Positions 28,466 to 51,473 of a stretch of DNA of 64,000 nt are shown in pieces. The notes beneath the pieces are model-generated. The model saw only the letters and a program-made list of their open reading frames with translations, did no database searches and was not told the origin of the DNA. The DNA comes from Ensifer canadensis (GTDB lineage Bacteria > Pseudomonadota > Alphaproteobacteria > Rhizobiales > Rhizobiaceae). The translations under genes were made by a program, and so were the position numbers. The stretch lies in contig NZ_CP083371.1 of the NCBI RefSeq assembly GCF_017488845.2, positions 1,116,001-1,180,000 on the forward strand, in the 5' to 3' direction. Position 1 is the first letter of the stretch; every line of letters starts with the position of its first letter.

Positions 28466-29743
28466 CTAGCCCTTGAACGTGTAATCCTTGATGGACTGCG
28501 GCTTCATCTCGATCGAAAAGCCTGGACGTTCCGGCGGCATGTAGGCGGCGTTGTGGATGATGCACGGCTCGAGGAAGTGCTCGTGCAAATGGTCGACATA
28601 CTCGATCACCCGGCCATCCTTGGTCCCAGACACGGCGATGTAGTCGATCATCGACAGATGCTGGACGTATTCGCAGAGCCCTACCCCGCCGGCATGCGGC
28701 CAGACTGGAAGCTCATACTTCGCCGCCACCAGCAGAACCGCCAGCACTTCGTTCAGGCCGCCCATGCGGCAGGAATCGATCTGCACCACGTCGATCGCGC
28801 CCTCGGCGATGAACTGCTTGAACATGATCCGGTTCTGGCACATCTCACCGGTTGCGACTTTCACCGGGCCGATCGCCTCACGGATCTTACGGTGGCCGGC
28901 GACATCATCGGGACTTGTCGGTTCCTCAATGAAGAACGGCTTGGCAAAGGCCAGTTGTTTGACCCAGTCGATCGCTTCACCGACCTCCCAGACCTGGTTA
29001 GCATCGATCATCAGGTAGCGGTCCGGGCCGATGACTTCGCGTGCAATGGTCAGGCGCCTGATGTCGTCGGCGAGATCACGCCCGACCTTCATCTTGACGT
29101 GATTGAAGCCCTGGTCGATTGCCTCCTGCGCCAGCCGGCGAAGCTTGTCGTCGTCATAGCCGAGCCAACCGGCAGACGTCGTATAGCAGGCGTAACCTTC
29201 GCTCTTCAGCGTCGCGATACGCTCCGCCTTGCCGGCTTCGGCACGCTTCAGGATCGCCACGGCTTCGTCGCGGGTCAGCACATCGGTCATATAGCGATAG
29301 TCGACAATGTCGGCGATCTCTTCCGGCGACATGTCGGCGACGAGTTGCCAGACGGGCTTGCCGGCTTCCTTGGCGAGCAGATCCCAGATCGCGTTGACGA
29401 TGGCACCGGTGGCCAGATGAATGGCCCCCTTCTCCGGGCCGATCCAGCGCAGCTGGCTGTCGCTGGTCAGATGTCGCCAAAAGCGGCCTGGATTGGCGAG
29501 TATCTCCGCCGTATCGCTGCCGACGACGAGATGCTGCATGGCTTTGATCGCCATGCAGCAGATGTCGTTGCCCCGCCCGATCGTGAACGTCAGGCCATGG
29601 CCCGCCAATCCGGGGCTATCGGTGTCGAGGATGACATAGGCCGCGGAATAGTCAGGGTCCGGGTTCATGGCATCGGAACCGTCGAGGCTCTGCGATGTGG
29701 GAAAGCGCAGATCGAAGACGCGCAGATCGGTGATGCGGGTCAT
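28466..29743 (-). CDS. L-fuconate dehydratase (enolase superfamily)
   Basis: Dehydrates L-fuconate to 2-keto-3-deoxy-L-fuconate. The 425-residue protein has the mandelate-racemase-subgroup machinery at the positions expected for characterised FucD: KMK (Lys 217 and 219), Asp 247 in IDANQVW, Glu in IEEPTSPDD, Glu in TGEMCQNR, and the base His in PHAGGVGLCEYVQHLSM. The last motif is typical of fuconate dehydratases. It is the final gene of the big operon, after the FAH-family hydrolase. Confidence 0.9.
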   Translation of the reverse strand: MTRITDLRVFDLRFPTSQSLDGSDAMNPDPDYSAAYVILDTDSPGLAGHGLTFTIGRGNDICCMAIKAMQHLVVGSDTAEILANPGRFWRHLTSDSQLRWIGPEKGAIHLATGAIVNAIWDLLAKEAGKPVWQLVADMSPEEIADIVDYRYMTDVLTRDEAVAILKRAEAGKAERIATLKSEGYACYTTSAGWLGYDDDKLRRLAQEAIDQGFNHVKMKVGRDLADDIRRLTIAREVIGPDRYLMIDANQVWEVGEAIDWVKQLAFAKPFFIEEPTSPDDVAGHRKIREAIGPVKVATGEMCQNRIMFKQFIAEGAIDVVQIDSCRMGGLNEVLAVLLVAAKYELPVWPHAGGVGLCEYVQHLSMIDYIAVSGTKDGRVIEYVDHLHEHFLEPCIIHNAAYMPPERPGFSIEMKPQSIKDYTFKG

Positions 29744-29764: not shown

Positions 29765-30610
29765 TCAGTCGTCCGCGCGTACGGACTGCTTCTGGGTGCC
29801 GAGACCTTCGATGCCGAGTTCGACGACATCGCCGGCCTTGAGGTAACGCGGCGGCTTCATGCCCATGCCGACGCCCGGCGGCGTACCGGTCGAAATGATG
29901 TCGCCCGGCTGCAGCGACATGAACTGCGACAGGTAGGAGACGATATATGCGACACCATAGACCATGGTCTTGGATGAGCCGTTCTGCATCGTCTCGCCGT
30001 TGACCTTGAGCCACATCGGCAGGTTCTGCGGATCCGGGATTTCCTCCTTCGTCACCAGCCATGGGCCGGTCGGGCCGAAGGTGTCGCAGGACTTGCCCTT
30101 GGTCCACTGTCCCTGGCGCTCGATCTGGAACGCGCGCTCAGACACGTCGTGGACCGTGCAATAGCCGGCGACATAGTCGAGGGCTTCGGCTTCGCTGACA
30201 TACTTCGCCTTGCGGCCGATGACGACGCCGAGTTCGACTTCCCAGTCGGTCTTCTCGGAGCCGCGCGGAATGACGAGGTCATCGTTCGGACCGACGATGG
30301 CCGACGTCGCCTTCATGAATATGATCGGCTCGGAGGGAACGGTCGCACCCGTTTCGGCGGCATGGTCGGAATAGTTGAGGCCGATGCAGATGAACTTGCC
30401 GGTGCCAGCGACGCAAGGGCCGAGGCGCGGGCTGCCGGCCACAGCCGGAAGGCCGGCAAGATCGAGCTTGGCCAGCTCCGCCAACTTGGCAGGATCCAGC
30501 GCTGCTCCCGAGAAGTCGGCGACATGGTCGGAAAGATCGCGAAGCGTGCCGCTCGCGTCGATGATTGCAGGCTTTTCCTGCCCCGGTTCGCCATAACGAA
30601 GAAGTTTCAT
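29765..30610 (-). CDS. FAH-family hydrolase, probable 2,4-diketo-3-deoxy-L-fuconate hydrolase
   Basis: A 281-residue fumarylacetoacetate-hydrolase-family enzyme. It shows the N-terminal KLLRYGEPGQEKPAIID, FICIGLNYSDHAAETG, then the metal-binding EVELGVVIGRKAKYV and the GDIISTGTPPGVGMG loop. In this cluster the natural reaction is cleavage of the diketo acid to pyruvate and L-lactate, the last step of the non-phosphorylating fucose route. The family is broad, so the specificity rests on context. It lies 21 bases before the fuconate dehydratase gene. Confidence 0.85.
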   Translation of the reverse strand: MKLLRYGEPGQEKPAIIDASGTLRDLSDHVADFSGAALDPAKLAELAKLDLAGLPAVAGSPRLGPCVAGTGKFICIGLNYSDHAAETGATVPSEPIIFMKATSAIVGPNDDLVIPRGSEKTDWEVELGVVIGRKAKYVSEAEALDYVAGYCTVHDVSERAFQIERQGQWTKGKSCDTFGPTGPWLVTKEEIPDPQNLPMWLKVNGETMQNGSSKTMVYGVAYIVSYLSQFMSLQPGDIISTGTPPGVGMGMKPPRYLKAGDVVELGIEGLGTQKQSVRADD

Positions 30611-30635: not shown

Positions 30636-31370
30636 TCAGATTGTCCAGCCGCCATCGATGGCATAGGCCTGCCCGGAGGTATAGGTCGCGCCGGCGAGGT
30701 AGAGGGCGAGATCGGCGATCTCTTCCGGCGTGCCGATCCGGCCCATCGGCTGACGGGCGATGAAGGCGGCCCTCGCCGCGTCGTAATCGCCCTGTGCCCG
30801 CATGCGATCCTGCAGCGATGGGCTTTCGACCGTACCAGGGCAGATGGCATTGCAGCGGATGCCGTCGGCGACATAGTCGGCGGCAACGGATTTGGTCAGG
30901 CCGATGACGGCCGCCTTGGTCACGCCATAGGCAAAGCGGTTCGGCACGCCCTTGATGCTGGACGCAACCGAAGCCATGTTGATGATCGAGCCGTCCTTGC
31001 GCGAAAGCATGCCCGGCAACACGGCCCGGATGGTGCGGATCATCGCCTTGACGTTGAGGTCGAAGGCGAATTCAAGGTCGGCATCCTTCATGTCGAGGAT
31101 CGAGCCGGCATGCACGAAACCGGCGCAATTGAAGAGCACGTCGACCTGACCGATCTTGGCAACCAGCGCCTCGACAGCGCCTGGGTCGAGAACGTCGAGC
31201 CGATGGGTTTCAACAGAGGCTTCTGCGGCCAGCGCTGCGAGTGCCTCGGTGTTGATGTCGGTGGCATGCACCTTGGCGCCGGCCTTGGCAAAGGCAAGCG
31301 CGGTGGCGCGGCCGATGCCCTGGGCTGCGGCGGTGATAAGGACGACCTTACCCGAAAGACCCGTTGTCAT
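30636..31370 (-). CDS. SDR oxidoreductase, probable 2-keto-3-deoxy-L-fuconate dehydrogenase
   Basis: A classical SDR of 244 residues: TAAAQGIGRA nucleotide loop, the NAD-selecting Asp in HATDINTE, NCAG, Ser in NMASVAS, the YGVTK catalytic pair and the C-terminal YAIDGGWTI. Its place between the FAH hydrolase and upstream pathway genes fits oxidation of 2-keto-3-deoxy-L-fuconate to the 2,4-diketo acid. It could alternatively be the first-step sugar dehydrogenase. ATG 31370; the open frame upstream lacks SDR features. Confidence 0.85.
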   Translation of the reverse strand: MTTGLSGKVVLITAAAQGIGRATALAFAKAGAKVHATDINTEALAALAAEASVETHRLDVLDPGAVEALVAKIGQVDVLFNCAGFVHAGSILDMKDADLEFAFDLNVKAMIRTIRAVLPGMLSRKDGSIINMASVASSIKGVPNRFAYGVTKAAVIGLTKSVAADYVADGIRCNAICPGTVESPSLQDRMRAQGDYDAARAAFIARQPMGRIGTPEEIADLALYLAGATYTSGQAYAIDGGWTI

Positions 31371-31380
31371 TGTTGACCCC

Positions 31381-31827
31381 TCATGCTTTGCGTTCGACGA
31401 CCAGGATATGATCGGCGGCGAGGACGACCTCGCCACGCTGGTTGATAACTTCGCACCGTTCGACGACACGTCCCGCCTTCGGCCGCTTCGGATCGTCCTC
31501 CTTGGCGGAGATCGTCACGCGGGTGCGGATGGTGTCGCCGATATGAACCGGACGCACGAACCGTAACCGATCATAGCCATAAGAAAAGGCGACGGGATTG
31601 ATCAGCGACGCCGTCAGGCCGACGCCGATGGAAAAGATCATGGTGCCATGGGCGATCCGCTGGCCGCCGGGCAAGGTTTTGGCGAATTCCGCGTCCATGT
31701 GGTGCGGGAAGAAGTCGCCCGTATGCCCGGCATGGACCACGAAGTCGGTCTCGGTGATCGTACGGCCTGTGCTCAACCTGACATGGCCGAGTTCATAGTC
31801 TTCGAAATGGATTGTCTGTTCCAACAT
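31381..31827 (-). CDS. MaoC-like hotdog-fold protein (first of two in the cluster)
   Basis: A 148-residue hotdog-fold protein with the hydratase-2-like features [19 protein letters not shown] (Asp/His pair) and [19 protein letters not shown]. MaoC proteins hydrate enoyl-CoA or bind acyl-CoA esters, which is unexpected in a free-acid sugar pathway. It lies 2 bases after the Gfo/Idh gene and is in the same operon. It resembles the protein at 43072-43623, notably in [21 protein letters not shown]. Confidence 0.83.
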
Positions 31828-31829
31828 CG

Positions 31830-32909
31830 TCAACGTCCGGGAAGTGGCGCGATCGCGGTTGCAGGCCGCGCGCTGGATTGGTAGGCGGCCTCGACCAGCG
31901 CCATCGTCTGCCAGGCGTCGTCGACTGCGCCGATCAGCTGCTCGTCCTCGCCACTAACGAAGCGTTGCAGGTTGGCCATGCGATTGGCAAAAGCGTCTGG
32001 GAACCAGGCGCCGTTGAGCGGCACCTCCACCCATTCCGTGCCACCGGCTGGCCGGATCCACAGTTCGTCGGGCTCGCCGCGCGGATAGTCGAGATTGACG
32101 CCCAGCTTGACGTATGCCGCCCCCTCGGTTCCCGAGATACGGAACTCGCAGGCCTGGAACTTGCGGCCGAAATCATGGTCGTGATTGACCGAAAGCACGC
32201 AGCGCACCTGGTCGCCGTAGTCGAGAATGGCGGCCGTGCGGGTCTGCGCCACCTCATGATTGGGATGGCCGATCGTCTTGGCGTGCACACCGTCGGGATT
32301 GCCGAGCAGTCCGCGGATCAGATCGAGATAATGGATCGAGTGCATGGCGATCTCGATCCGCGGCAACCCTTTGAGGAACGGCCAGAGACCCCAGGGCGTG
32401 GCAAGTGCAAGCCACGCATCGAAGTCGACGATCTGGCCGAGATAGCCTTTTTCGATCGCGTCGCGCAGCGCCAGCATCATCGGGGCAAAGCGAAGCTGGA
32501 AATTGACTGCCGCCTGCAATTGCCGGTCACGGCAGATGTTGAGGATCTCCGTGGCTGCTGCCAGATCTGCGCCCATCGGCTTCTGGATCAGGGCGCCCGA
32601 TCCTACTGGCAGTTTCGACAGGATTGCAGCATGCGCTGCCGGCGGCGTCGCCAGATCGAAGATCGCATCTGGGATTGCCAGCGCCTCGGTCTCGGTCGCA
32701 AACGCTCGGATGCCCCATTCGGCAGCAAGCGACGCCGCCTTCTTGACATCGGGATCGAAGATGCCGGCGACGGGAAGGCCTGCCTTGCGATAGGCCGGAA
32801 GATGCGCATCACCGACAATGCTGCCGGCGCCGAAGATGACGATCGGGCGCGGTTTTTCGGGTGTCGGCCAGGATTGCTGCAGCGACGTCGGATCGAACTG
32901 GTCAGTCAC
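31830..32909 (-). CDS. Gfo/Idh/MocA-family oxidoreductase
   Basis: NAD(P)-dependent sugar or sugar-derivative dehydrogenase of 359 residues. The N-terminal Rossmann fold has [18 protein letters not shown]. The catalytic-region motif is QKP in place of the usual EKP. The C-terminal sheet domain contains [14 protein letters not shown]. It could perform the first oxidation of the sugar to the lactone, as no other obvious sugar-1-dehydrogenase is in the operon. Its start overlaps the mutarotase gene by 8 bases. Confidence 0.85.
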
Positions 32910-33262: not shown

Positions 33263-34375
33263 CTACTTCACGAATTCCCGGGTGAACTCGTTGATCGAGC
33301 GCGCTTTCACGGCATCCCAGTCCCAGGCAATGCCGATGCCGGCTTCAGATGGCGCGATGGCGCGTCCGTTACGGATCTCCATGCCCTTGGTCGTCAGTTC
33401 ATCGAGTTGCGGAATGTATTCGACATATTTGCCGTTCGGCACGGCGCAGACAAGGCTGACATGCAGTTCCATCAGGAAATGCGGGCAGACCGGAATATCG
33501 AAAGCCTCAGCAGCGTGCGCGACCTTCAACCAAGGCGTGATGCCGCCGATGCGGGCGACGTCGACCTGGACGATCGAGCAGGCCCCCTTCTGCATGTACT
33601 CACGGAAATGCCGGATCGAATACATGGATTCGCCGACGGCGATCGGGGTCGGGGTCGAGCGTGTCAGGCGGATGTGGCCGTCGAGATCGTCGGCCGGCAG
33701 CGGCTCCTCGATCCAGGCGAGATCCAGCTCCTTCAGCCGAGCGGCCCGGCGGATCGCCTCGTCAACGGTAAAACCCTGGTTACAGTCGGTCATGATCTCG
33801 AAGCCATCGCCGAGCGCTTTGCGCATCGCCGAGAGGCGATCATAGTCCTCGGAGCCGTGCGGCTTGCCGATCTTGACCTTGGAGCCGGAAAAACCCTTGG
33901 CCTTGGCCTGAAGCGCATCCTCGACGAGGGCTTCCTTTTCGATATGCAGCCAACCGCCTTCGGTGGTGTAGAGCGGGCAACTGTCCTTGGCGCCACCGGC
34001 AAGCTTCCAGAGCGGCAGCTTCTGTTTCCGTGCGCGCAGGTCCCAAAGGGCGGTGTCGACGGCAGCGAGTGCCAGCGCCGTTATCGGGCCGATCGTCGTC
34101 GCATGGGTGGCAAATTCCATCTTGTGCCAGATGGCTTCGATGCAATCGGCGTCCTCGCCGATCAGGATCGGAACGAGGTGGTCGGACAGCAGGCGCATGA
34201 CGGAGGATCCGCCCGTGCCGATCGTGTAGCTGTAGCCCGTCCCGGTCGCGCCGTCGGAATCGGTGATCGTGACGATCGGCGTTTCCTGGCTGACGAAGCT
34301 CTGGATCGCGTCGGTCCGCTTCACCTTCGGCTGCAGATCGACCATACGCAGTTCAATTTTCTCGATCCTTGCCAT
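33263..34375 (-). CDS. Enolase-superfamily acid-sugar dehydratase (MR/MLE type)
   Basis: A 370-residue second enolase-superfamily enzyme, distinct from the fuconate dehydratase. It has GSKVKIGK as the KxK-like catalytic region, Asp in TDCNQGF, IEEPLPADD, VGESMYS and a base His in CPHFLMELHVS. The exact sugar acid cannot be read; candidates include epimers of fuconate, galactonate-type or pentonic acids. Its presence suggests the operon handles more than one sugar. It lies 10 bases before the mutarotase. Confidence 0.82.
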   Translation of the reverse strand: MARIEKIELRMVDLQPKVKRTDAIQSFVSQETPIVTITDSDGATGTGYSYTIGTGGSSVMRLLSDHLVPILIGEDADCIEAIWHKMEFATHATTIGPITALALAAVDTALWDLRARKQKLPLWKLAGGAKDSCPLYTTEGGWLHIEKEALVEDALQAKAKGFSGSKVKIGKPHGSEDYDRLSAMRKALGDGFEIMTDCNQGFTVDEAIRRAARLKELDLAWIEEPLPADDLDGHIRLTRSTPTPIAVGESMYSIRHFREYMQKGACSIVQVDVARIGGITPWLKVAHAAEAFDIPVCPHFLMELHVSLVCAVPNGKYVEYIPQLDELTTKGMEIRNGRAIAPSEAGIGIAWDWDAVKARSINEFTREFVK

Positions 34376-34376
34376 G

Positions 34377-35474
<1,098 letters not shown>

Positions 35475-35479
35475 GAATG

Positions 35480-36346
35480 TTATCCTTTCACCGCGCCGAA
35501 GGTGAGGCCCGAAACGAGGTGCTTTTGAATGATGAAGGTGAGCGTGAGCGCCGGGACGATCATGACCACGGCGAGCGCGCACATACCGCGCCAGTCGATC
35601 GTGAACTCGGCGGTGTAGTCGAGCAGGCCGACGGGCAGAGTTTTCGAGTTGACCGAGCGGGTGATCTGCGAGGCCAGAGCATATTCATTCCAGGACGTGA
35701 GGAAGGCGAAGATGCCCGCGGAGGCAATGCCGGGGCCAGCAAGCGGAAACTCCACCTGCCAGAATGCCTGCCAGGGTGTGCAGCCGTCGATCTGGGCGGC
35801 TTCCGCCAGATCCTTCGGTACCTGACGGAAGAAGCCGTCGATCAGCCAGATAGTGAAGGGCACGTTCAGCGCGACATAGGTCAGGATCAGCGAGAAATGC
35901 GTGTCGATGATGCCGGTGCGGGCATAGATCATGAAGAGCGGGAGGGACAACGCGATGCCGGGAACGGCGCGCGTCAGCATGAAGCCGAGGAAAATCGCCG
36001 ACTTTGCCTTGAAGCGGTAACGGGCAAAGGCATAACCACCGGCCATGCCGATCGCCAGAGCGATCACCGTCGACGTGACGGAGATGATGAGAGAGTTGCG
36101 GAAGTAGTCCCAGACGGGAACCCCGCCCTGCCCGGCGCCGGCGAACATGGCGCGGTAGGCATCCAGCGAAATGCTTTCCGGGATCCAGACCGGCGGCTTT
36201 GCCATGATCTCGACGGTCGGGCGCAACGACGACAGCACGATCCAGAGGCCCGGCAGGCAGATCACGGCCATTGCGAGAAACAGCCCGATCAGATGCGCCG
36301 TCTTCAGGAGGCGCCGGCGCAGGCGATGTGACGAATTGATATCCAT
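35480..36346 (-). CDS. Sugar ABC transporter permease (MalG type)
   Basis: A 288-residue inner-membrane protein with six hydrophobic helices and the EAA loop DLAEAAQIDGCTPWQAFWQVEFPLAGP that contacts the ATPase. The ATG at 36346 touches the stop of the MalF-type gene, indicating coupled translation. It partners with that permease as a heterodimer. Confidence 0.92.
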   Translation of the reverse strand: MDINSSHRLRRRLLKTAHLIGLFLAMAVICLPGLWIVLSSLRPTVEIMAKPPVWIPESISLDAYRAMFAGAGQGGVPVWDYFRNSLIISVTSTVIALAIGMAGGYAFARYRFKAKSAIFLGFMLTRAVPGIALSLPLFMIYARTGIIDTHFSLILTYVALNVPFTIWLIDGFFRQVPKDLAEAAQIDGCTPWQAFWQVEFPLAGPGIASAGIFAFLTSWNEYALASQITRSVNSKTLPVGLLDYTAEFTIDWRGMCALAVVMIVPALTLTFIIQKHLVSGLTFGAVKG

Positions 36347-37242
36347 TACCACTCGGCTCCGATCTGCTGGCGCGCGGCGGCGAGCTTGCGGAAGAAATAG
36401 ACGGTGAAGACGATCGACAGCAGGATGGCGACATAGGCCATGGCGTTGGCCATCCCCATGCGGGCGTCGGCGTAGGCCGTGCGGCCGATCAGGGTCCACA
36501 GAAGCTCGGTGCGCTTGGCCGGGCCGCCATCGGTCATGATCTTCACGATGTCATAGGCGCGGGCGACGTCGAGCGAGCGGATCGTCATGGCGATGAAGGC
36601 AAAAGGCATGAGATAGGGCCAGGTGACGTAGCGGAATGTCTGCCATGGCGTGCAGCCATCGACATGCGCCGCCTCGACCGGGTCCTTCGGCATCGCCAGA
36701 AGACCGGCAAGAATGAGGATCGCGAAGACCGCGGTCGACGACCAGACCTCGGCAATGATGATCGAGATCAGCGCGAGGTTGCCGTCAATCAGCCAGGGGA
36801 TGGCGCGGTCCGTCAGCCCGAGCGACTGCAGCGCATTGTTCACGAAACCGATGTTGTCGTTGAACATGAATTTGAACTGGAAGCCGACGAGCACCGGTGA
36901 AAACATCATCGGGAACATCATGATGGTGCGCAGCAGCCGCTGGCCGTGGGTGGCCTTGTTGACAAGGAGCGCGAGGCCGAGGCCAAGCAGCATCTCCGTG
37001 TTCAGTGCGACGGTGAGCAGAAGGACGGTGCGGCCGAAAGCGACCCAGAAATCCCAGTTGCTCAGCACGGTGATGTAGTTGCGCAGACCGACGAAGATCC
37101 AGAGCGATTCAGGCTTGGTCAGCCGGAACGGCGTGAAGCTCGAATAGAAGGAGAAGAGCAACGGCACCACGATGACCGCTGCCAGCACGACAAAGGCCGG
37201 TAGTAGCAGAAGGACCGGTGCGGACAGTTTCTTGAGCTTCAT
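36346..37242 (-). CDS. Sugar ABC transporter permease (MalF type)
   Basis: A 298-residue inner-membrane protein, six helices, EAA loop DPVEAAHVDGCTPWQTFRYVTWPYL. The gene lies 179 bases after the binding-protein gene, the space being taken partly by a strong hairpin, and it overlaps the MalG-type gene by one base. Confidence 0.92.
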   Translation of the reverse strand: MKLKKLSAPVLLLLPAFVVLAAVIVVPLLFSFYSSFTPFRLTKPESLWIFVGLRNYITVLSNWDFWVAFGRTVLLLTVALNTEMLLGLGLALLVNKATHGQRLLRTIMMFPMMFSPVLVGFQFKFMFNDNIGFVNNALQSLGLTDRAIPWLIDGNLALISIIIAEVWSSTAVFAILILAGLLAMPKDPVEAAHVDGCTPWQTFRYVTWPYLMPFAFIAMTIRSLDVARAYDIVKIMTDGGPAKRTELLWTLIGRTAYADARMGMANAMAYVAILLSIVFTVYFFRKLAAARQQIGAEW

Positions 37243-37421: not shown

Positions 37422-38741
37422 TCAGAGCTTTCCTGCGTCTTCCAGGATGCCGGTCGCCTTTTCGGCGGCAGTGTCGAGCGCTTCCTTCGACGTCTTGTCG
37501 CCGAGGATGGCGGCCTGGAGTTCAGGATAGACGGCGTTGGAGATTTCGATCCATTCTGCAGTCTGCGGAACCGGGAATGCATGCTTTGCCGCTTCCTGGA
37601 AAGCCTGCAACACCTCAGTCTTGTAGGCATCGCCCTCGGCGGCCTTGATGTTGTATTCCCAGACGGCGGTGCGCGTCGGCAGCGGACCGGTCGCCGATTC
37701 CAGCTTCTGGCTATCCTCGTTGGTCAGCCACCAGACGAGCGAAGCTGCCGCTTCCTTGTTGGCGCAGTCCTCGGTGACCGAGAAGCCGTGGTGCCCGGAC
37801 CAGCCCGTGCGCTTGCCCGAGGAACCTGCCGGCTGAACCTTGACGCCGACATTGCCGGCAACCTTCGACGACTTCGGATCGTTGAAGAAGCTCGCCCAGC
37901 CAGGCCAATCGAGATTGACGGCGATCGAGCCGGAAGCAAAGCCCTGGCCGAGATCGTCCCAGAGGTAGTTGGTCGTGCCCGGAGGAACGGCCTTGTCCTT
38001 GTAGAGCTTGACGAACCAGTCGAGCGCCCGGATGCCGGCTTCGGAATTGAAGGCCGGACGTCCATCCTTGTCGAGGTATTCGCCACCTTCGGCGACCAGC
38101 ATTTCATAGAAGCGGCCATTGATGGCCTCTTCCTTGCCGGCAAACTGCGTACCGTAGAAGTTCGGCGGGGCCGCGAAGAATTCTGCCTGGTCGCTGACCT
38201 GCGCCCAGGTATCCGGCGGCGTGAGGTCGTAGCCGTATTTTTCCTTGAAGGCGGCCTTCTTGGCATCGTCCTGGTAGAGGCTCTTTTGATAGTAGAGCGC
38301 CGACACGTCGAACTGCGCGCGTGGAAGCATGACGAGCTTGCCGCCGAGCGTCGAGGCGTCGATGACAGCCGGCACGAACTTTGCGATTTCTTCCGGCGGA
38401 AGCAGTGCCAGGAGATCGGTATAGATGTCGGGGTATTGCGGGGCGAAGGAAGAGTGGTTGGAACCGACGCACCAGCTGATACCGCCCGTGGCGATATCCG
38501 ACTTGATCTCCTTGTCGAGTTCGAAGTGATTCTTCTTCGACAGGATATTGACCTTGGCGCCGGTCGCCTTCTCCCATTCGGCGATGCGCTCATAGAGCTT
38601 TTCGTATTGCTGTCCGCCGATCAGCTTGGCGTCGATGGTGACGCCTTCGAACTTGCCGGGCAGTTCCGCGGCGCTGGCCGCTCCCACTGCGCAGGCAAGC
38701 ATGATGACTCCGGCCGAGACGCCGGAAAGCAGCCTGTTCAT
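37422..38741 (-). CDS. Sugar ABC transporter substrate-binding protein
   Basis: A periplasmic binding protein of 439 residues (family 1): signal peptide SGVSAGVIMLACAVGAASA, then the mature two-lobed fold with FEGVTIDAKLIGG, the hinge-side VMLPRAQFDVSALYYQKSLY and the C-terminal FPVPQTAEWIEISNAVYPELQAAI. Expected ligand: a monosaccharide feeding the neighbouring pathway. GGAGAGGTT precedes the ATG. It is the first gene of the operon, with an inverted repeat (38783-38800) 41 bases upstream. Confidence 0.9.
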   Translation of the reverse strand: MNRLLSGVSAGVIMLACAVGAASAAELPGKFEGVTIDAKLIGGQQYEKLYERIAEWEKATGAKVNILSKKNHFELDKEIKSDIATGGISWCVGSNHSSFAPQYPDIYTDLLALLPPEEIAKFVPAVIDASTLGGKLVMLPRAQFDVSALYYQKSLYQDDAKKAAFKEKYGYDLTPPDTWAQVSDQAEFFAAPPNFYGTQFAGKEEAINGRFYEMLVAEGGEYLDKDGRPAFNSEAGIRALDWFVKLYKDKAVPPGTTNYLWDDLGQGFASGSIAVNLDWPGWASFFNDPKSSKVAGNVGVKVQPAGSSGKRTGWSGHHGFSVTEDCANKEAAASLVWWLTNEDSQKLESATGPLPTRTAVWEYNIKAAEGDAYKTEVLQAFQEAAKHAFPVPQTAEWIEISNAVYPELQAAILGDKTSKEALDTAAEKATGILEDAGKL

Positions 38742-38782: not shown

Positions 38783-38800
38783 TTTCTCATTTGTGAGAAA
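38783..38800. promoter_or_regulatory. Candidate operator of the sugar operon
   Basis: A perfect inverted repeat, TTTCTCATTTGTGAGAAA (7-base arms, 4-base spacer), in the divergent region between the binding-protein gene and the IclR gene. The TTTCTYAT half recurs upstream of the lactonase gene and the MaoC/CoA-transferase operon. Confidence 0.65.
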
Positions 38801-38877
38801 CTAATTCATATACAAACAACAATTTTATCACTCGTCAAGGGTGAACTTTCTTTTGTCGGCGGCTTTCTCTGCGTATA

Positions 38878-38908: not shown

Positions 38909-39697
38909 ATGGACACCGAAGAGTCCGATCGCTACCGCGCCCCCGCGCTGGACAAGGGACTTGATATTCTCGAACTGCTGGCGAGCGTCGATGGAGGCCT
39001 GACGCAGGCGGAAATATCGAAAAGGCTCAATCGGAGCCCGAACGAATTCTACCGGATGCTCGACCGGCTCGTGCGCCGCGGCTACGTCACGCGAATCGAT
39101 GGCGATCGCTATTCCCTGACGTTGAAGCTTTTCGGCCTGGCCCAGCTTCACGCACCGGTGCGGCGGCTGGCCTCCTATGCGACGCCACTGATGCGCGATC
39201 TTGCCCAGCGGTCGAAGCAGGCCAACCAGTTGGCCGTGTTCGATCGCGGCTCGGCCGTGGTCATCGCCCAGCAGGAAGCGCCTGATTACTGGGGTATCTC
39301 AATCAGGGTCGGCTCGCACATCAGCCTGTTCGATACTGGCTCCGGTCACATCCTGCTCGCCTTCCGCACGCCGGAGGAGCGGGAAATGATGATCGCCGAG
39401 CACGCGCGCAGCAAGGACGAGATCTTGCTTGGTCCGGAATTCTATGCCCGGCTCGACCAGATCCGCGAGCGTGGCTACGAAATGATGGCAAGCGCCCAGA
39501 CGGCCGGCGTCTACAACCTCTCGGCGCCCATTCTCGGGCCTGACGGCCGTGGCATCGCGGCATTGACCATTCCCTATATTGCGCTGGTCAATGCGCCATC
39601 TGCGCCTGATATCACCGAGACGATCTCGCTCCTGCGCAGCGCGGCAACACAGCTTTCGGTGCTCGCGGGATCGGATGTGGCGCAATCGTCGGAATGA
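38909..39697 (+). CDS. IclR-family transcriptional regulator
   Basis: A 262-residue regulator: N-terminal winged helix (LDILELLASVDGGLTQAEISKRLNRSPNEFYRMLDRLVRRGYV) and a C-terminal GAF-like effector domain. IclR proteins often govern sugar-acid and aromatic catabolism. It is divergent from the transport/catabolic operon and lies just before the lactonase gene, so it is the likely local regulator. AAGGAGG lies 5 bases before the ATG. The effector may be the sugar or 2-keto-3-deoxyfuconate. Confidence 0.9.
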   Translation: MDTEESDRYRAPALDKGLDILELLASVDGGLTQAEISKRLNRSPNEFYRMLDRLVRRGYVTRIDGDRYSLTLKLFGLAQLHAPVRRLASYATPLMRDLAQRSKQANQLAVFDRGSAVVIAQQEAPDYWGISIRVGSHISLFDTGSGHILLAFRTPEEREMMIAEHARSKDEILLGPEFYARLDQIRERGYEMMASAQTAGVYNLSAPILGPDGRGIAALTIPYIALVNAPSAPDITETISLLRSAATQLSVLAGSDVAQSSE

Positions 39698-39814: not shown

Positions 39815-40651
39815 GTGATCGTTGATACCCATCTGCATCTCATCAACAAGTCCGCGTTGACCTATCCCTGGCTGACGGGCGTCCCGGCGCTGGATCGGGA
39901 TTTCCTCTATTCGACCTATGAGGCGGAGGCCCGGCGTGTCGGCATCGAGACGGCGTTGCACATGGAAGTTGACGTCGATCCCGGCGAAATGGAGCTGGAG
40001 ACCTCAGAGGTTCGACAGCTCTCGCAAAAAGCGGGCAGTCTGCTCAAGGGGGCAATTGTCGCATGCCGCCCGGAAGAGGACGGCTTTGCCGCCTATCTCG
40101 AACGGCAGCAGGGGGACCGCCTCGTCAAGGGGTTTCGCCGTGTCCTGCATGTGGTCCCGGACGATCTGTCGGAAGGTTCCCTCTTCCGCGAGAACATCAA
40201 GCTGCTTGGCGGTAGCCGGTTTACCTTCGATCTCTGCGTCCTGCCGCACCAGATCCCCAAAGCGATTGCCCTTGCCGATCTCGTGCCCGATCTGCAGTTC
40301 GTGCTCGACCATTGCGGCGTTCCCGATATCCGCAACGGCGCCGAACATCCCTGGCGTGACCATATGCGCGAGATCGCAAAGCGGCCGAACGTGGTTGCCA
40401 AGATATCCGGCGTCGTCGCCTATGCGGATGAAAGCTGGAATGTCGAGACGCTACGACCTTACGTCGAGCATACGATCGCTACTCTCGGCTGGGACCGCGT
40501 CGTCTGGGGCAGCGATTGGCCCGTCTGCACGCTCGGCGCCAACCTTTCAACCTGGGTTGCGACCACTCACGCGTTGCTGGAGCACTGCAGTCCGGACGAG
40601 CGGACAAAGCTGCTGTCGGCAAACGCACGTCGAATCTGGAATCTCGCGTAA
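39815..40651 (+). CDS. Amidohydrolase-family sugar lactonase, probable L-fucono-1,5-lactonase
   Basis: A 278-residue metal-dependent hydrolase of the COG3618 group, which contains L-fucono-lactonases. It shows the N-terminal metal pair DTHLHL, FVLDHCGVPD with a central His, VAKISGVVAYAD, and the catalytic Asp in VVWGSDWPVCTL. It hydrolyses the lactone made by the sugar dehydrogenase to the free acid. A GTG start with GGAGGAAG 7 bases upstream. It lies downstream of the IclR gene and has its own upstream motif. Confidence 0.87.
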   Translation: MIVDTHLHLINKSALTYPWLTGVPALDRDFLYSTYEAEARRVGIETALHMEVDVDPGEMELETSEVRQLSQKAGSLLKGAIVACRPEEDGFAAYLERQQGDRLVKGFRRVLHVVPDDLSEGSLFRENIKLLGGSRFTFDLCVLPHQIPKAIALADLVPDLQFVLDHCGVPDIRNGAEHPWRDHMREIAKRPNVVAKISGVVAYADESWNVETLRPYVEHTIATLGWDRVVWGSDWPVCTLGANLSTWVATTHALLEHCSPDERTKLLSANARRIWNLA

Positions 40652-40769: not shown

Positions 40770-41906
40770 TTACGCCGCCGCGAAGCTTTCGGTGAAAAGC
40801 CGGTTGAGATCGTCAACGACCTGTCGCGCCTTCTCCTTGCGCAATAGCCCGTCATTGATGCGATCCGAGGCCGCCTGCTGGAACGGCATGTAACCATCGT
40901 GTCGGGGACGCACCCAGGCGGTTTCGAGCGTCGCACGGGTCGCGCGATAAAAGTTTGATGTCGCCGCGTTCACCGCATCGTCGTCCCAGGCGTCGCCGTG
41001 TCCCGGCTGTCCGCCGCCAAAGGCGTAGGCCTGGCGCTGGACCGCACCGCTTGCAACCCAATAGGCAAAGTCGGTCGCGGCGTCGATGGACGACGAGAAG
41101 CCGGAGACGGCAATGCCCGTTCCGCCAAGCGCCGAACCGCTTGGGCCATGCTGGCCGGCGACCGGAATGTCGCCAAACCGGATGAGCGACGGCCGGAAAC
41201 CGGCAACCGAGTAGCTGACGTAGCCGTAGATTAACGGCGCGCAGGCGGCTTTTGCCTCCGGGGCCGACATCGCCTCCAGCACCGCGATCGGATCCATCGC
41301 GAAGCAGGCGGGGTCGATCAGCGATACAAGCTCGGAGAGCATCTCGAAGGCGGCAACGCCTCCGTCACGGTCCACCAGGTCCGCTTGTCCGCTCACTGCG
41401 CAGGGGTGACCGAGATTGCCGCAGAGCGTGTAGAAGCTCATCAGCGAATGCGGCGGTCGCAGCGGCAGCAGCACCGCACCCTTGCGCGCGAGGTCCAACA
41501 TGCCGGACCAGCTCGAAACACGCTCTCCGAGATCAGGGCGCCAGGCCTGGACCTGTGCCGCGGCATCGATCGGAAAGGCCCATTGGCGCCCGTTCCAGCT
41601 GTAACTCGGATAGGATTGCCCGACCGACCCGGCTGCAAGCACGGAACGTTCCGCTTCTCGACCGGCCACATCAAGAGGCGCAAGGCACCCTTCATTGGTG
41701 ATCTGCCCGACATGCGGGTGATCGATAACGATCAGATCGTATGCCTTGGCGAGCTCCTCGACCGGATAGGTCTCGAAATCCTGCAGCGAGCGCTTCTCCC
41801 AATGGATGGCAACCCCGGTCTTTTCCTGCCAGAGTCTCGAACACGCCACCATGGGGTCGTAACCGCGTGGATGGCTCCACGTCATGCCCTTGAGGGTGAC
41901 GGTCAT
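40770..41906 (-). CDS. ABC-type solute-binding protein without signal peptide
   Basis: A 378-residue protein with the fold pattern of family-1 sugar-binding proteins: TVTLKGMTWSHPRGYDPMVACSRLWQEKTG, DLIVIDHPHVG, WAFPIDAAAQVQAWRPDL, then later FAYWVASGAVQRQAYAFGGGQPGH and FYRATRATLETAWVRPRHDGY. The first residues are those of the mature fold. There is no hydrophobic leader, and the ATG overlaps the CoA-transferase stop by 4 bases, so a missed upstream signal is unlikely. It is presumably cytoplasmic. It may have been repurposed as an enzyme partner or sensor. Confidence 0.78.
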   Translation of the reverse strand: MTVTLKGMTWSHPRGYDPMVACSRLWQEKTGVAIHWEKRSLQDFETYPVEELAKAYDLIVIDHPHVGQITNEGCLAPLDVAGREAERSVLAAGSVGQSYPSYSWNGRQWAFPIDAAAQVQAWRPDLGERVSSWSGMLDLARKGAVLLPLRPPHSLMSFYTLCGNLGHPCAVSGQADLVDRDGGVAAFEMLSELVSLIDPACFAMDPIAVLEAMSAPEAKAACAPLIYGYVSYSVAGFRPSLIRFGDIPVAGQHGPSGSALGGTGIAVSGFSSSIDAATDFAYWVASGAVQRQAYAFGGGQPGHGDAWDDDAVNAATSNFYRATRATLETAWVRPRHDGYMPFQQAASDRINDGLLRKEKARQVVDDLNRLFTESFAAA

Positions 41907-43063
41907 AGGCCGAACTCCTTGCGGATCGATGCACTGTGTTCGCCGATTCTCGGGGCAGCGCGATCGACCTGGGCGCGCCGACCGTTGACCCGCAGCGGCG
42001 AACGCGTGGTCAGGATTGACACGTCGTCTTCGCGGTTGACCGTCTGCAGCATGTCAAGGGTGCGGAAGCCGTCGCTTTCCAGCAGTTCGTTCCAGTTGAG
42101 CACGCGAGCGCACCAGATGTCGGCCGGCTCGAGCACGGCCAGCCAATGGTCCACCGTGTTTTCGCCGATGCGCTCGGCGATCAGGGCCTTGATCTCGTCT
42201 CTTGCGGAAAACCACGAAGACGGGTCGTCGCAATAGGGTGCGAGCTGCGGCATCTCCAGGAGGTCGGCAAGTTTCGAGATCGGCGTCATCGCGATGGCGA
42301 GGTAGCCGTCCTTGGCGGGGTAGACCCCGTAGGGCGCCGACAGATAGGCGTGTGCGCTGCGGAAATCCGAGCGCTTCGGCAGCCGCCTGCCGTCGTTGAG
42401 ATGGGTCGTCAGCACCTCGAACTGGAAGTCGACCAGTGCTTCGAGCAGGCTGGTTTCAATCAGGCTGCCCTTGCCGGAGATGCCGCGGCGGACGAGGCCG
42501 GCAAGAATGCCCTGGGCGGCTGCAGCGCCGGCAAGCATATCGCCAATGGCAAGACCGAAGGGGACCGGCCCTTGTGCTTCGTCGCCATTCAGCCACATGA
42601 CGCCGGAACGTGCCTGCGCCAGCAGGTCCTGACCGGGCCGCTTGACCCAGGGACCCTCCTCCCCATAACCGCTGATCGAAGCGTAGACGATGCGCGGGTT
42701 GATCGCCCGAACGGCCTCGTAGTCGAGGCCCAGCCGTTGAATGACGCCGGGTCGGAAGTTCTGGATCAGGACGTCGGCCTTGGCGAGCAGCGCCTTCAGC
42801 GCCGCCACATCGGATTCGTCCTTGAGGTCGATTGCCAGACTTTCCTTGGCGCGATTGATCGCGTGGAAGATGGTGGAATCGCCACCGATCTCGGTGTCGC
42901 TGAGATAGAGGCGGCGCGATAGATCGCCGCCATCCGGGCGCTCGATCTTGATGACGCGCGCGCCCAGGTCCATCAGCCGTAGAGAGCAATAGGGACCGGA
43001 GAGAAACTGGCTCATGTCGACGACGACAAGGCCGGCCAAAGGCAGTTCGTTTTCCTCGTGCAT
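41903..43063 (-). CDS. CaiB/BaiF-family CoA-transferase
   Basis: A family III CoA-transferase of 386 residues that moves CoA between carboxylic acids. Visible marks are the N-terminal LAGLVVVDMSQFLSGPYCSLRLMDLGARVIKIE, the SLAIDLK strand, VLIQNFRPGVIQRLGLDYE, the conserved Asp in PGQDLLAQARSGVM, and DMLAGAAAAQGILAGL. Between a MaoC gene (8 bases upstream) and the cytosolic binding-protein-like gene (4-base overlap), it forms the core of a three-gene operon. The acid substrate is unknown. Confidence 0.9.
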   Translation of the reverse strand: MHEENELPLAGLVVVDMSQFLSGPYCSLRLMDLGARVIKIERPDGGDLSRRLYLSDTEIGGDSTIFHAINRAKESLAIDLKDESDVAALKALLAKADVLIQNFRPGVIQRLGLDYEAVRAINPRIVYASISGYGEEGPWVKRPGQDLLAQARSGVMWLNGDEAQGPVPFGLAIGDMLAGAAAAQGILAGLVRRGISGKGSLIETSLLEALVDFQFEVLTTHLNDGRRLPKRSDFRSAHAYLSAPYGVYPAKDGYLAIAMTPISKLADLLEMPQLAPYCDDPSSWFSARDEIKALIAERIGENTVDHWLAVLEPADIWCARVLNWNELLESDGFRTLDMLQTVNREDDVSILTTRSPLRVNGRRAQVDRAAPRIGEHSASIRKEFGL

Positions 43064-43071
43064 CGCTGTTC

Positions 43072-43623
43072 TTATTTCTCTGTCTTGCCGACGAAGTCAG
43101 CCGGATTGTTGTACTTCACCGTCTGCAGATGCTCGCAGTAGAGCACCAGCTCACCCTCGTTCTTGAAGACCTGATAACTGGCCCGGATCAGACCCAGCTC
43201 CTTGTAGCGCGGTGTTTTGTCCATGTTGGTGCGGATCGTGTAGATCGTGTCGCCCAGAAAGACCGGCTTGATGAAGCGCAGCTTGTCATAGCCGTAGGAG
43301 AAAGCGTTGACGCAGTTGGTGGCGACGAGGCCGAGGCCGGCCGAAAAAACGAAGGCGCCAGCCACCAGTCGGCGGCCGAAGATGCCTTCCCGTTCCGCGA
43401 ACATCTGATCCTGGACATAAGGGTGGATGTCGACGACCAGCGTGTTGAACAGGTGGCTGTCGCTCTCGGAGATCGTCCGGCGCAACGAGCGGATGCGCTG
43501 GCCGACCGGCCAGTTCTCGTAAAACCAGTTTTCGGCATTCCACACCGGAAGGGCAGCGTGATCCTCCGGCATGTCGGTGGGGCGTGTCGTAGACACGCCA
43601 ACGGTTGGCGAGAATTCATTCAT
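43072..43623 (-). CDS. MaoC-family hotdog protein (second of two)
   Basis: A 183-residue member of the MaoC/hydratase-2 group. The catalytic loop region reads [20 protein letters not shown], then [18 protein letters not shown], with [24 protein letters not shown] further on. It closely parallels the shorter protein at 31381-31827. It is the first gene of the operon with CaiB and the leaderless binding protein, so it probably hydrates or dehydrates the CoA ester made by the transferase. Confidence 0.83.
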
Positions 43624-43730: not shown

Positions 43731-43746
43731 TTTCTTATGTAAAGAT
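43731..43746 (-). promoter_or_regulatory. TTTCTYAT-type site upstream of the MaoC/CoA-transferase operon
   Basis: TTTCTTATGTAAAGAT on the plus strand, a loose inverted repeat, about 110 bases before the MaoC start. The rest of 43624-43895 shows no gene. Confidence 0.4.
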
Positions 43747-43895
43747 ACTGTTCACATATGGAGGCTTTTTGCAAGATGCAAATGACCATTGCGCCCGGCC
43801 TGATCTGCCGGCCAAGAAAGCCATGGATCGAAAGAAACGCTGCAGAGCCGGTGAGTGAAAAATGGTGCCGTCCCAAGCGGCGCAGGATGCGAAAT

Positions 43896-44447
43896 CTATC
43901 GGGTGGTCTTGCGGATGCGGCTCACCTTCTCGTCGCGAGGCTTGGATGCCTGCGGTTGAGGGCCGGGTTGCTCTTCCTCCTCAACTACCGCTTCGAGCCT
44001 GCCGACGACGGAAAGAACAAGAAAGGCGGATCCTGTCGCAAAGGCAGCGATGATCCAGTGGCCGAAGCCGAGAGCGAGGCCAATGGCGCCCGCCAACCAC
44101 AGACTACCGCCGGTCGTCAGGCCCTGGACCTGTCCGCGCGACAGTACGATGGTGCCCGCCGCAAGAAAGGCGACGCCCGCGGTGACCGCCTCAACGACGC
44201 GCAAGGGATCGATCCGGACCCGCTCGTCTATGAAGCCCTTCATAGAGACGCTTTCAAGCGAGATGACTGCAAAGGTGCAGGCGGCGAGGCAGACGAGCAT
44301 GTGCGTCTTGAGACCGGCCGGGCGGGCTTTGGCTTCACGCTCGAAGCCGATGATCGAGCCCATCAGCAGGGCTCCGAGAATGCGCGCGAAGATGACCGGA
44401 TAGGGAATCTGCGACGGCGGAAACATGTCTGCTACGATTTGCTCCAT
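43896..44447 (-). CDS. MgtC/SapB-family membrane protein
   Basis: A 183-residue inner-membrane protein: the conserved LGALLMGSIIGFEREAKARPAGLKTHMLVCLAACTF block followed by further hydrophobic helices, and a charged, proline-containing tail. MgtC-like proteins affect magnesium-limited growth and ATP-synthase regulation in pathogens; in rhizobia the role is open. Two starts are possible: ATG 44447, which lies inside a large hairpin, or ATG 44426 (MFPPSQIPYPV), which fits the family N-terminus better. Confidence 0.82.
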   Translation of the reverse strand: MEQIVADMFPPSQIPYPVIFARILGALLMGSIIGFEREAKARPAGLKTHMLVCLAACTFAVISLESVSMKGFIDERVRIDPLRVVEAVTAGVAFLAAGTIVLSRGQVQGLTTGGSLWLAGAIGLALGFGHWIIAAFATGSAFLVLSVVGRLEAVVEEEEQPGPQPQASKPRDEKVSRIRKTTR

Positions 44448-46057: not shown

Positions 46058-46606
46058 ATGAGCAGAATTAATCTAGTTGACCCCAAGACGGCAACCGGTG
46101 CCAGTGCAGAACTGCTGGGCAGCATCCACGCGGCCTTCGGCGCGACACCGAACATGTTTAAGGCGGTGGCCAATTCCCCGGCGGCACTTGCCAGCATGTG
46201 GGGTTCGTTCGGCGCGCTTGGCAATGGCCGGCTCGGCGCCAAACTCGGAGAGCAGATTGCCGTCGCCGTCGCTGACCGCAATGATTGCCACTATTGCCTG
46301 GCGGCGCATACGGCTCTCGGCCGCAAGGCCGGCGCGACAGCGCAGGAAATGGCTGACGCCCAACGCGGCGACTCCGCTGATCCGAAGACCGCGGCGGTGC
46401 TTTCATTCGTCCGCATCCTGGTCGACGAGCGCGGTCAGGTCTCGGATGCTGACGTCAAGGCGTTGCGCAATGCCGGCTTCGACGATCAGGACATTGTCGA
46501 GATCATCGCGCACGTGGCGCTCAATCTCTTCACCAACTACATCAACGTGGCCCTCGCCGTGCCGGTCGATTTCCCCGGCGTCAAGCTCGTGCGCGAAGCG
46601 GCCTGA
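46058..46606 (+). CDS. Carboxymuconolactone-decarboxylase/AhpD-like peroxidase-related protein
   Basis: A 182-residue all-helical protein of the CMD/AhpD superfamily. The redox motif NDCHYCLAAHTALGRKAG contains the CxxC plus His typical of AhpD alkylhydroperoxidases. The C-terminal half (DIVEIIAHVALNLFTNYINVAL) is the family dimer helix. It probably reduces peroxides or related oxidants using thiols. First gene after the four-Cys MarR. Confidence 0.87.
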   Translation: MSRINLVDPKTATGASAELLGSIHAAFGATPNMFKAVANSPAALASMWGSFGALGNGRLGAKLGEQIAVAVADRNDCHYCLAAHTALGRKAGATAQEMADAQRGDSADPKTAAVLSFVRILVDERGQVSDADVKALRNAGFDDQDIVEIIAHVALNLFTNYINVALAVPVDFPGVKLVREAA

Positions 46607-46612
46607 CATCCC

Positions 46613-46637
46613 GCCGGGCAGGACCTGCCTGCCCGGC
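46613..46637 (+). other. Intercistronic hairpin
   Basis: GCCGGGCAGG-ACCTG-CCTGCCCGGC, a perfect 10-bp stem, 6 bases after the AhpD-like stop and 22 before the redoxin start. It probably lowers expression of the downstream genes or protects the AhpD-like message. Confidence 0.55.
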
Positions 46638-46659
46638 CCCTCCCAAAAGGAATGGCCTC

Positions 46660-47235
46660 ATGATCGCTGATCTCTCAAATCAGGCGCCGGAACTGGACGT
46701 GAGCAGTTGGTTCAACACCGCAACGCCGCTGAGCCTCGGCATGCTGCGCGGGCGCGTCGTCTTCATCCACGCCTTTCAGATGCTTTGCCCCGCCTGCGTA
46801 TCGCACGGATTGCCGCAGACCCAGCGCGTGCAGCGGCTGTTTCGCGACACCGATCTCCAAGTGATCGGCCTGCACACGGTTTTCGAACATCATACGGCGA
46901 TGGGTCCGGAGGCCCTCAAGGCGTTCATCCACGAATACCGTCTAAGCTTTCCGATCGGCGTCGACGCGGCATCACCCGATACGCCGATACCGCGCACGAT
47001 GCAGGGCTACGGCATGCGTGGCACGCCCACGACCATCATCATTGGCCGCGACGGCAAGGTCCGCCACCATCGATTCGGGATCGAGGACGATCTGCTCGTC
47101 GGAGCTTGGCTGGCGACAGCACTTGCAGAACCGCTGCCGGCAACGACTGTGCCGGTGGACATCGCCGGCTGCACGACTGACGGCTGCGCAATTCCCGATG
47201 AGATTTCACGTCGAATAGAGACAGGAAAGCGATGA
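46660..47235 (+). CDS. Thioredoxin-like redoxin (AhpC/TSA-TlpA type)
   Basis: A 191-residue cytoplasmic thioredoxin-fold protein with no signal peptide. The active site is QMLCPACVSHG (CPAC). The cis-Pro region is MRGTPTTIIIGRDGKVRHHRFG. A C-terminal AGCTTDGCAI adds two more cysteines, possibly a second redox or metal site. The stop overlaps the next gene by 4 bases. Confidence 0.84.
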   Translation: MIADLSNQAPELDVSSWFNTATPLSLGMLRGRVVFIHAFQMLCPACVSHGLPQTQRVQRLFRDTDLQVIGLHTVFEHHTAMGPEALKAFIHEYRLSFPIGVDAASPDTPIPRTMQGYGMRGTPTTIIIGRDGKVRHHRFGIEDDLLVGAWLATALAEPLPATTVPVDIAGCTTDGCAIPDEISRRIETGKR

Positions 47236-48639: not shown

Positions 48640-48688
48640 ATGTGGCCCCGGCTTGCTTGCCCGGCAAACGTAGAAAGCCTGCTCTGTG

Positions 48689-51288: not shown

Positions 51289-51356
51289 GCGAATTCTCCT
51301 CGGACACGATCGACGGCAGGCGCCAGACAGGGCCGGCAGTCCAAAAAAGATAAACT

Positions 51357-51371
51357 CTATAAAATTTATTG
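51357..51371. promoter_or_regulatory. Sulfur-cluster motif, copy a (ssuD / flavin reductase)
   Basis: CTATAAAATTTATTG in the divergent region, 69 bases from ssuD and 103 from the flavin reductase start. One of four related 15-mers in this cluster. Confidence 0.55.
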
Positions 51372-51473
51372 ACAATGAAAAATCCGGCGATCATTTTTGA
51401 GTAGAGGAAAAATTTTTTCCCGGATCGCGGCTTCACGACCGGGAAGCAGGTCAAATTTTTCGAGGATTTTGCC

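Follow-up and report, generated by a model that had tools for sequence, protein, structure and literature searches.

A leaderless sugar-binding-protein fold encoded next to a CaiB/BaiF CoA-transferase as a candidate enzyme partner in bacterial sugar-acid catabolism

The window analysed here is a stretch of 64,000 nucleotides from Ensifer canadensis (contig NZ_CP083371.1, positions 1,116,001 to 1,180,000), which is part of a 1.91-Mb contig in a genome of 8.09 Mb and harbors, beside an operon of the L-fucose type, three genes encoding a MaoC-fold protein (maoC1), a CaiB/BaiF CoA-transferase (caiB) and a leaderless binding protein (LBP). LBP has the fold of a sugar-binding protein, and on balance we favor the reading that it serves in the cytosol as the substrate-binding partner of the adjacent CaiB in sugar-acid catabolism, probably as a subunit of the CoA-transferase. 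The leaderlessness of LBP, its predicted fold, its conservation, its co-occurrence with a sugar dehydrogenase gene, a shared promoter motif and the regular association with CaiB and a hydratase were all computed, and are presented first.

The three genes lie on the minus strand and are as tightly packed as had been predicted: maoC1 (43072..43623; Pfam MaoC), in which D-I-H-P-Y-V replaces the hydratase motif D-x-x-P-x-H, is separated by 8 nt from caiB (41903..43063; 386 aa; Pfam CoA_transf_3), which in turn overlaps by 4 nt with the LBP gene (40770..41906; 378 aa; Pfam SBP_bac_8, AF2 model and fold match). CaiB scores 336 bits with CoA_transf_3 and has both the family III domain and the catalytic Asp, as D175 aligns with the catalytic Asp of solved family III CoA-transferases; CoA transfer is its predicted activity. 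In one such enzyme Asp169 is described as catalytic, according to the available part of the article (PMC5592240). For divergent CaiB proteins, a search by sequence pattern for this Asp matched 23 of 35, some at the wrong place; it was too crude and was not used.

The original prediction described the third gene product as a sugar-binding-protein fold without a signal peptide, which is supported by Pfam, the predicted fold and a leader test. The AF2-predicted fold aligns end to end with true sugar-binding proteins, and the GG motif conserved in those proteins is retained, so that by fold LBP is a solute-binding protein of the ABC-importer type; by hydropathy, the signal peptide needed for export is missing. 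In the window, the annotated start of LBP is the earliest possible, and no start is available further upstream. The leader test compared the N-terminal hydropathy peaks of 73 distinct family members, with every possible upstream start allowed, to those of 65 secreted binding proteins (orthologues of the secreted solute-binding protein, SBP, of the window), all of which reach at least 1.71, the lowest control peak. Under every secreted control lie 72 of the 73 members, the remaining one being L136, for which a start 39 residues upstream is needed to reach 1.79 and the nearest start gives 0.69. A leader read from a different start is thus not apparent in 72/73 members, and the claim stands. All 16 aligned close homologues start within about 10 residues of a conserved LKGMTW core.

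LBP also has no permeases of its own, as the permeases of the window pair with the secreted SBP (37422-38741). In contrast to CUT1-type sugar-binding proteins (TMBP 1eu8, LpqY, SmoF), LBP lacks a signal peptide, its gene adjoins caiB and not a permease gene, and some of its loci have no annotated ABC permease. By sequence, the LBP family appears to stand apart from ordinary binding proteins: matches were obtained in 25 of 249 Pseudomonadota genomes, 11 of them full-length with E below 1e-70 and 14 partial only, with E of 6e-9 or worse. A plasmid search with LBP returned 144 records at E <= 1e-30, Streptomyces and Persicobacter among them, and the best plasmid match for a 4.5-kb query is from Sinorhizobium mexicanum (87.0% over 84%). 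Distant LBP paralogues (L120, L121, L154, L179) sit among UxuA, RraA and SDR genes, hence the LBP family is not tied to 6-deoxy sugars.

The conservation of the gene set in other genomes was checked in a survey of the best 80 of 363 relatives in a collection of species genomes, and by co-occurrence across the family. As the 80 loci come mostly from a few related genera (Sinorhizobium/Ensifer, Rhizobium, Mesorhizobium and Phyllobacterium), their counts are not independent. The caiB gene lies directly upstream of LBP in 78/80 loci, the other two being a locus at a contig end (L041) and one with a 182-nt gap (L065), and MaoC lies directly upstream of caiB in 67/80. At least one of gfo (a Gfo/Idh/MocA sugar dehydrogenase gene), MR/MLE and the secreted SBP is present in the flanks of 63/80 loci; for the 17 unlinked loci, gfo was found elsewhere in the genome in 14 of the 14 tested, at 70-76% identity (L021, L024 and L041 were outside the test). 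In L003 (S. medicae) and L184 (S. meliloti), the annotation shows caiB and LBP but no maoC1, and an amino-acid ABC/argH stretch lies between caiB-LBP and the sugar operon; L003 also has an IS110 transposase adjoining caiB.

Among 161 genomes of the family, LBP had a match in 41 and gfo in 38. LBP was kept at about 45% identity or more, leaving 36 genomes (five with only more distant paralogues were dropped), and gfo was likewise kept in 36, two matches at 48-50% being dropped and a truncated one (G900) retained. Both genes occur together in 34 of the 161 genomes (Fisher p = 4.5e-30, uncorrected for relatedness), with two discordant genomes on either side, and in all 30 cases with both genes on the same contig they are no more than 20 kb apart.

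The association extends to 33 divergent LBP loci (about 32-66% identity to the window LBP), which form a part of all matches and include several close relatives. CaiB, counted if at least 40% of its length was matched, is present in 28 of them, and MaoC or a crotonase (ECH) in the same 28, with neither in the other five (L147, L148, L149, L179, and L175, where the contig spans 3.4 kb and CaiB is partial). The search was permissive, because some query proteins come from those very loci; with identical queries and the same threshold, however, CaiB, MaoC, ECH and gfo were found in none of the 20 control stretches, each 20 kb long, of which 15 come from the window genome and five from two others. 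The divergent clusters hold MR/MLE or UxuA dehydratases, altronate-dehydratase-like genes, lactonases, SDR and FAH genes, and sugar transporters. The gene order is caiB-LBP in Rhizobiaceae and the reverse in L116-L119, L176 and L189, where the two genes overlap or abut.

The last two of these loci are from the Bacteroidota Persicobacter (L176) and Rufibacter (L189), where SusCD and a RhaT symporter are present, and neither the annotated genes of 25 kb nor a tblastn search with the window permeases revealed an ABC permease, hence a role of LBP in a local importer is unlikely there. A pure transport role for LBP was discarded on the strength of the leader test and these loci without annotated ABC permeases. 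The gene order in both is LBP, CaiB, CaiB, a second binding protein and Gfo, with MaoC nearby. Pfam classes the second binding protein as an SBP; it shares about 25% identity with the secreted SBP of the window and is also leaderless, as in-frame stops lie 4 and 1 codons upstream in the two loci. Its coordinates are 15436-16668 in L176, 12001-13248 in L189, 5423-6610 in L180 and 11992-13227 in L188; further copies, in L115 and L150, come from Alphaproteobacteria, as does that of L180, to which they are 75% identical. Its hosts include Bacteroidota, a sphingomonad and a haloarchaeon, and the clusters around it hold genes for CaiB, Gfo and MaoC. The relative in Halostagnicola larsenii (35%) lies between an AMP-binding acyl-CoA synthetase and MaoC, in a cluster that further holds CaiB, two Gfo, a mutarotase, an amidohydrolase and an alpha-L-fucosidase. 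The role of LBP had been left between enzyme partner, carrier and sensor; because the genes for LBP and CaiB abut or overlap whichever of them comes first and the second leaderless protein adjoins a second CaiB, the enzyme partner is now favored, and the carrier and the sensor less so.

A motif in the promoter region, TCCATATGTGAACAGTATCTTTACATAAGAAA, lies upstream of maoC1 (43731..43762, minus strand) and is conserved across maoC1 upstream regions; [CT]ATATGTGA is carried by 46 of 52 of them, and the approximate form is CATATGTGAA-N7-TTYAYAWAAGAA. It also precedes maoC1 in Phyllobacterium L046, where the trio is unlinked. With a weight matrix built from the maoC1 upstream motifs, a second match (score 13.4) was found in the window between the secreted SBP gene and iclR (38786..38817, plus strand). 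Upstream regions of the secreted SBP/iclR have a median of 7.3 (n=65), compared to -19.9 for shuffled SBP upstream regions (95% value -10.4, n=325), with shuffles that kept base composition only; the lowest score is -13.5, so the motif is not in every one of these regions. The median before the lactonase gene is 4.2 (n=54), and the matrix detected no motif before gfo (median -23.0, n=41) or MR/MLE (-23.4, n=44). The promoter motif claimed to be common to the trio and the neighboring L-fucose-type operon is thereby borne out for the secreted SBP/iclR and lactonase upstream regions.

From this setting we infer a physical complex of LBP and CaiB, the formation of a CoA ester, and the substrate and reaction as follows. 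Judging by homology, Gfo would oxidize the sugar and the lactonase would open the ring to yield an L-fuconate-type aldonate; cytosolic LBP would bind this sugar-derived acid and hand it to CaiB, which would load CoA onto it. MaoC2, the second MaoC protein of the sugar operon, or a crotonase-type hydratase/dehydratase would then act on the CoA ester, and CaiB would pass the CoA on to the next acid. The likeliest reaction would be loss of the 3-hydroxyl from the aldonyl-CoA to give a 2-keto-3-deoxy acid (as acyl-CoA), which would be chemically sensible, since a thioester raises the acidity of the alpha-proton. That sugar acids are dehydrated as CoA thioesters in this way, with a CoA-transferase and its cytosolic binding-protein subunit charging the aldonate, MaoC or crotonase removing the 3-hydroxyl, and CoA being recycled, is possible, and we put it forward tentatively. 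The predicted handling of part of the sugar-derived acid as a CoA ester has gained comparative support, as all 28 divergent loci with CaiB also have MaoC or crotonase and an acyl-CoA synthetase lies in the haloarchaeal cluster, but a role of MaoC1 as the hydratase is doubtful.

Parts of this scheme resemble known systems. In carnitine metabolism, CaiB, a family III CoA-transferase, works with CaiD, an enoyl-CoA hydratase-type enzyme (crotonase), and the pair recycles CoA between acids instead of spending it. Here, in contrast, the gene context is that of sugar acids, a leaderless binding protein belongs to the set, and CaiB falls below the carnitine CoA-transferase model (NCBIfam NF002914; 81.5 bits, cut-off 413). 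It is likewise under the NCBIfam equivalog cut-offs for mesaconate (209.7 bits, cut-off 700), glutarate (205, cut-off 750) and oxalate (186, cut-off 522) CoA-transferases. The haloarchaeal mesaconate CoA-transferase and mesaconyl-CoA hydratase also combine a CaiB-type transferase with a subsequent MaoC-type hydratase; their substrate is, however, dicarboxylic, and the accessible part of that report mentions no binding-protein partner (PMC5592240).

Several observations weigh against CaiB and LBP acting as partners on a sugar acid. MaoC1 is a recognizable MaoC domain (47 bits, cut-off 27) and retains Asp65, but the position of the His is Val70 in 54/54 aligned sequences, in a motif whose placement is backed by alignment with solved MaoC chains; a relative with 66% identity (L117) reads D-H-H-P-Y-V. 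D-x-x-P-x-H is what we take to be the catalytic motif of MaoC hydratases, with its Asp and His. As the hydratase His is missing throughout, the hydratase is more likely to be MaoC2 (31381..31833, minus strand; NCBIfam), in which conservation of D-F-F-P-H-H reaches at least 95% across 24 orthologues together with the window copy, so that the catalytic Asp and His are kept; the paralog that the deoxy-sugar operon was said to have is indeed there. MaoC1 may then be a non-catalytic or differently acting, re-purposed partner. Its candidacy as the hydratase of the trio was doubted for the replaced His and also because 13/80 loci, some at contig ends, have no MaoC directly before caiB.

Further points on the same side come from the distribution of the genes. 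Two genomes have LBP only (G662, G840) and two gfo only (G821, G900); G662 has a window-type LBP with CaiB and ECH (L156) yet no gfo match, and G821 has a variant operon of gfo (80% identity), an altronate-dehydratase-like gene, SDR, IclR and lactonase. LBP is absent from the G821 genome at E <= 1e-60, and the retrieved 20 kb hold no CaiB. The CaiB tree is not sorted cleanly by the type of binding protein. In four divergent loci (L147, L148, L149, L179) LBP is found without CaiB or hydratase in the examined flanks, two of which (L147, L149) are cut by contig ends, and LBP may therefore act without that CaiB. Against the specific loss of the 3-hydroxyl, a dehydratase-like query (MR/MLE, UxuA or altronate-dehydratase-like) matches in 15 of the 28 CaiB-bearing divergent loci, and the window itself holds two dehydratase-like genes of the enolase superfamily, beside which a dehydratase acting on CoA esters would be redundant. 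In favor of that reaction, the flanks of the other 13 loci have no such match (IlvD was not queried). Regarding the substrate, the strong L-fucose binding protein of S. meliloti, SMc02774, belongs to another transporter (PMC3454389).

Nor were convincing fusions of LBP and CaiB found among the 120 listed of 495 matches to a query in which the window LBP and CaiB were joined head to tail. By domain annotation and coverage, four of the 120 listed proteins have both (P0289, P0291, P0297, P0298); P0289 and P0297 look like frameshift read-through, and the cleaner P0291 and P0298 come from one metagenome contig each, and none was used as evidence. The idea of many natural LBP-CaiB fusions was rejected, as seven of nine proteins read were CaiB-CaiB tandems and two (P0289, P0297) had LBP and CaiB. 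Many of the entries P0182-P0288 are proteins of about 770-830 aa, for example from Hymenobacter and Planctomycetota, and it is to these that the seven with two tandem CaiB domains belong; they parallel the caiB-caiB pairs adjoining LBP in L118, L119, L176 and L189.

An alternative explanation of the same gene set, which we regard as rather unlikely, is that LBP is itself an enzyme, such as an epimerase, lactonase or dehydratase of the sugar acid or its CoA ester, with CaiB and the hydratase catalyzing neighboring steps. Enzymes on the binding-protein fold exist, and work on cyclohexadienyl dehydratase reportedly bears on them. The eight polar or aromatic residues that are invariant in 36 diverse LBP members (W10, R14, D62, H63, D114, Y232, Q300, R333) exceed what a pure carrier might need, and the four loci in which LBP occurs without CaiB hold lactonase-, FAH- or dehydratase-like genes. 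However, the predicted fold fits true sugar-binding proteins from end to end with the GG motif kept, no catalytic motif is known for LBP, and the adjacency to caiB in nearly all close loci argues for the partner role.

Less probable still is that LBP, instead of being a catalytic partner, senses a metabolite in the cytosol and thereby controls CaiB or an IclR-type regulator: binding-protein folds are suited to sensing and IclR genes lie near many LBP genes, but in most loci LBP adjoins caiB rather than the regulator, and LacI regulators accompany this same set of LBP, CaiB and hydratase genes in Streptomyces, Variovorax and S. meliloti LMB1. We are equally doubtful that MaoC1, CaiB and LBP serve a different, co-regulated acid, which would make the link to sugar indirect. 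The altered active site of MaoC1, the scores of CaiB below all NCBIfam equivalog cut-offs listed and the two genomes with LBP but no gfo would be consistent with such an acid, whereas the near one-to-one co-occurrence of LBP with the sugar dehydrogenase, and the prevalence of sugar or sugar-acid clusters also among the LBP loci from other families and phyla, speak for the sugar. That LBP is an ordinary ABC binding protein, whose leader was missed or which is exported by another route, is very improbable, since, although Pfam and the fold group it with the binding proteins of sugar importers, no leader was found from any start in 72/73 members, the operon already has a leader-bearing binding protein and no ABC permease gene is annotated in the two loci from Bacteroidota.

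While the parts of the set belong to known families, the arrangement looks undescribed: no account of maoC1-caiB-LBP was found among the listed titles and abstracts of searches in the open-access literature, the available parts of PMC12595884 and PMC11378808 hold nothing on the trio, and fuconate, MaoC and CaiB do not occur in the text of PMC9007349. Should LBP and CaiB act together as proposed, a fold regarded as the hallmark of import would have been recruited as a soluble CoA-transferase partner, and this at least twice, once as LBP in Pseudomonadota, Actinomycetota and Bacteroidota, and once as the second leaderless type in Alphaproteobacteria, Bacteroidota and Halobacteria. Breakdown of sugars by non-phosphorylative routes would then proceed in part via CoA esters, adding a further sugar-acid dehydration to those by enolase, IlvD and UxaA/UxuA enzymes, and many proteins labeled 'extracellular solute-binding protein' would gain a function, with the warning that such labels can mislead on both location and role.

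The operon neighboring the trio has homologues for each step of the non-phosphorylative L-fucose pathway (dehydrogenase, lactonase, fuconate dehydratase, SDR, diketo-acid hydrolase), and to our knowledge that pathway requires no CoA-transferase, MaoC proteins or cytosolic binding protein. On the plus strand lie genes for an Amidohydro_2 lactonase resembling L-fucono-lactonase (39815..40651; Pfam) and for an IclR-family regulator (38909..39697; Pfam). On the minus strand follow the secreted sugar-binding protein with a signal-like N-terminus (37422..38741), whose orthologues are annotated as solute-binding protein and whose longer open reading frame (ORF) has no Pfam match, the ABC ATPase and two permeases of a sugar transporter (34377..37242; Pfam ABC_tran, BPD_transp_1), an MR/MLE dehydratase-like enzyme of the enolase superfamily (33263..34375; Pfam), gfo (31830..32909; Pfam), MaoC2, an SDR dehydrogenase (30636..31370; Pfam on a longer ORF, NCBIfam), an FAH-family diketo-acid hydrolase (29765..30610; Pfam on a longer ORF, NCBIfam) and an enolase superfamily enzyme resembling L-fuconate dehydratase (28466..29743; Pfam), the orthologues of which are named L-fuconate dehydratase. 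The lactonase (FuconLaconase, 104.5 bits, cut-off 400) and the hydrolase (DhyDRhmHlse, 421.8 bits, cut-off 500) both stay under the curated NCBIfam cut-offs, and L-fucose is a candidate substrate by homology only. Alpha-L-fucosidase genes are present in three relative loci (L176, L180, L188), and those in L176 and L180 may serve as an independent pointer to fucose. Upstream of the trio, an MgtC-family gene lies on the minus strand (43896-44447), and the region 46058-52022 holds a cluster of CMD, AhpC-like, glutamine amidotransferase, MOSC, FAD-NAD(P)-binding, luciferase-like monooxygenase and flavin reductase genes.

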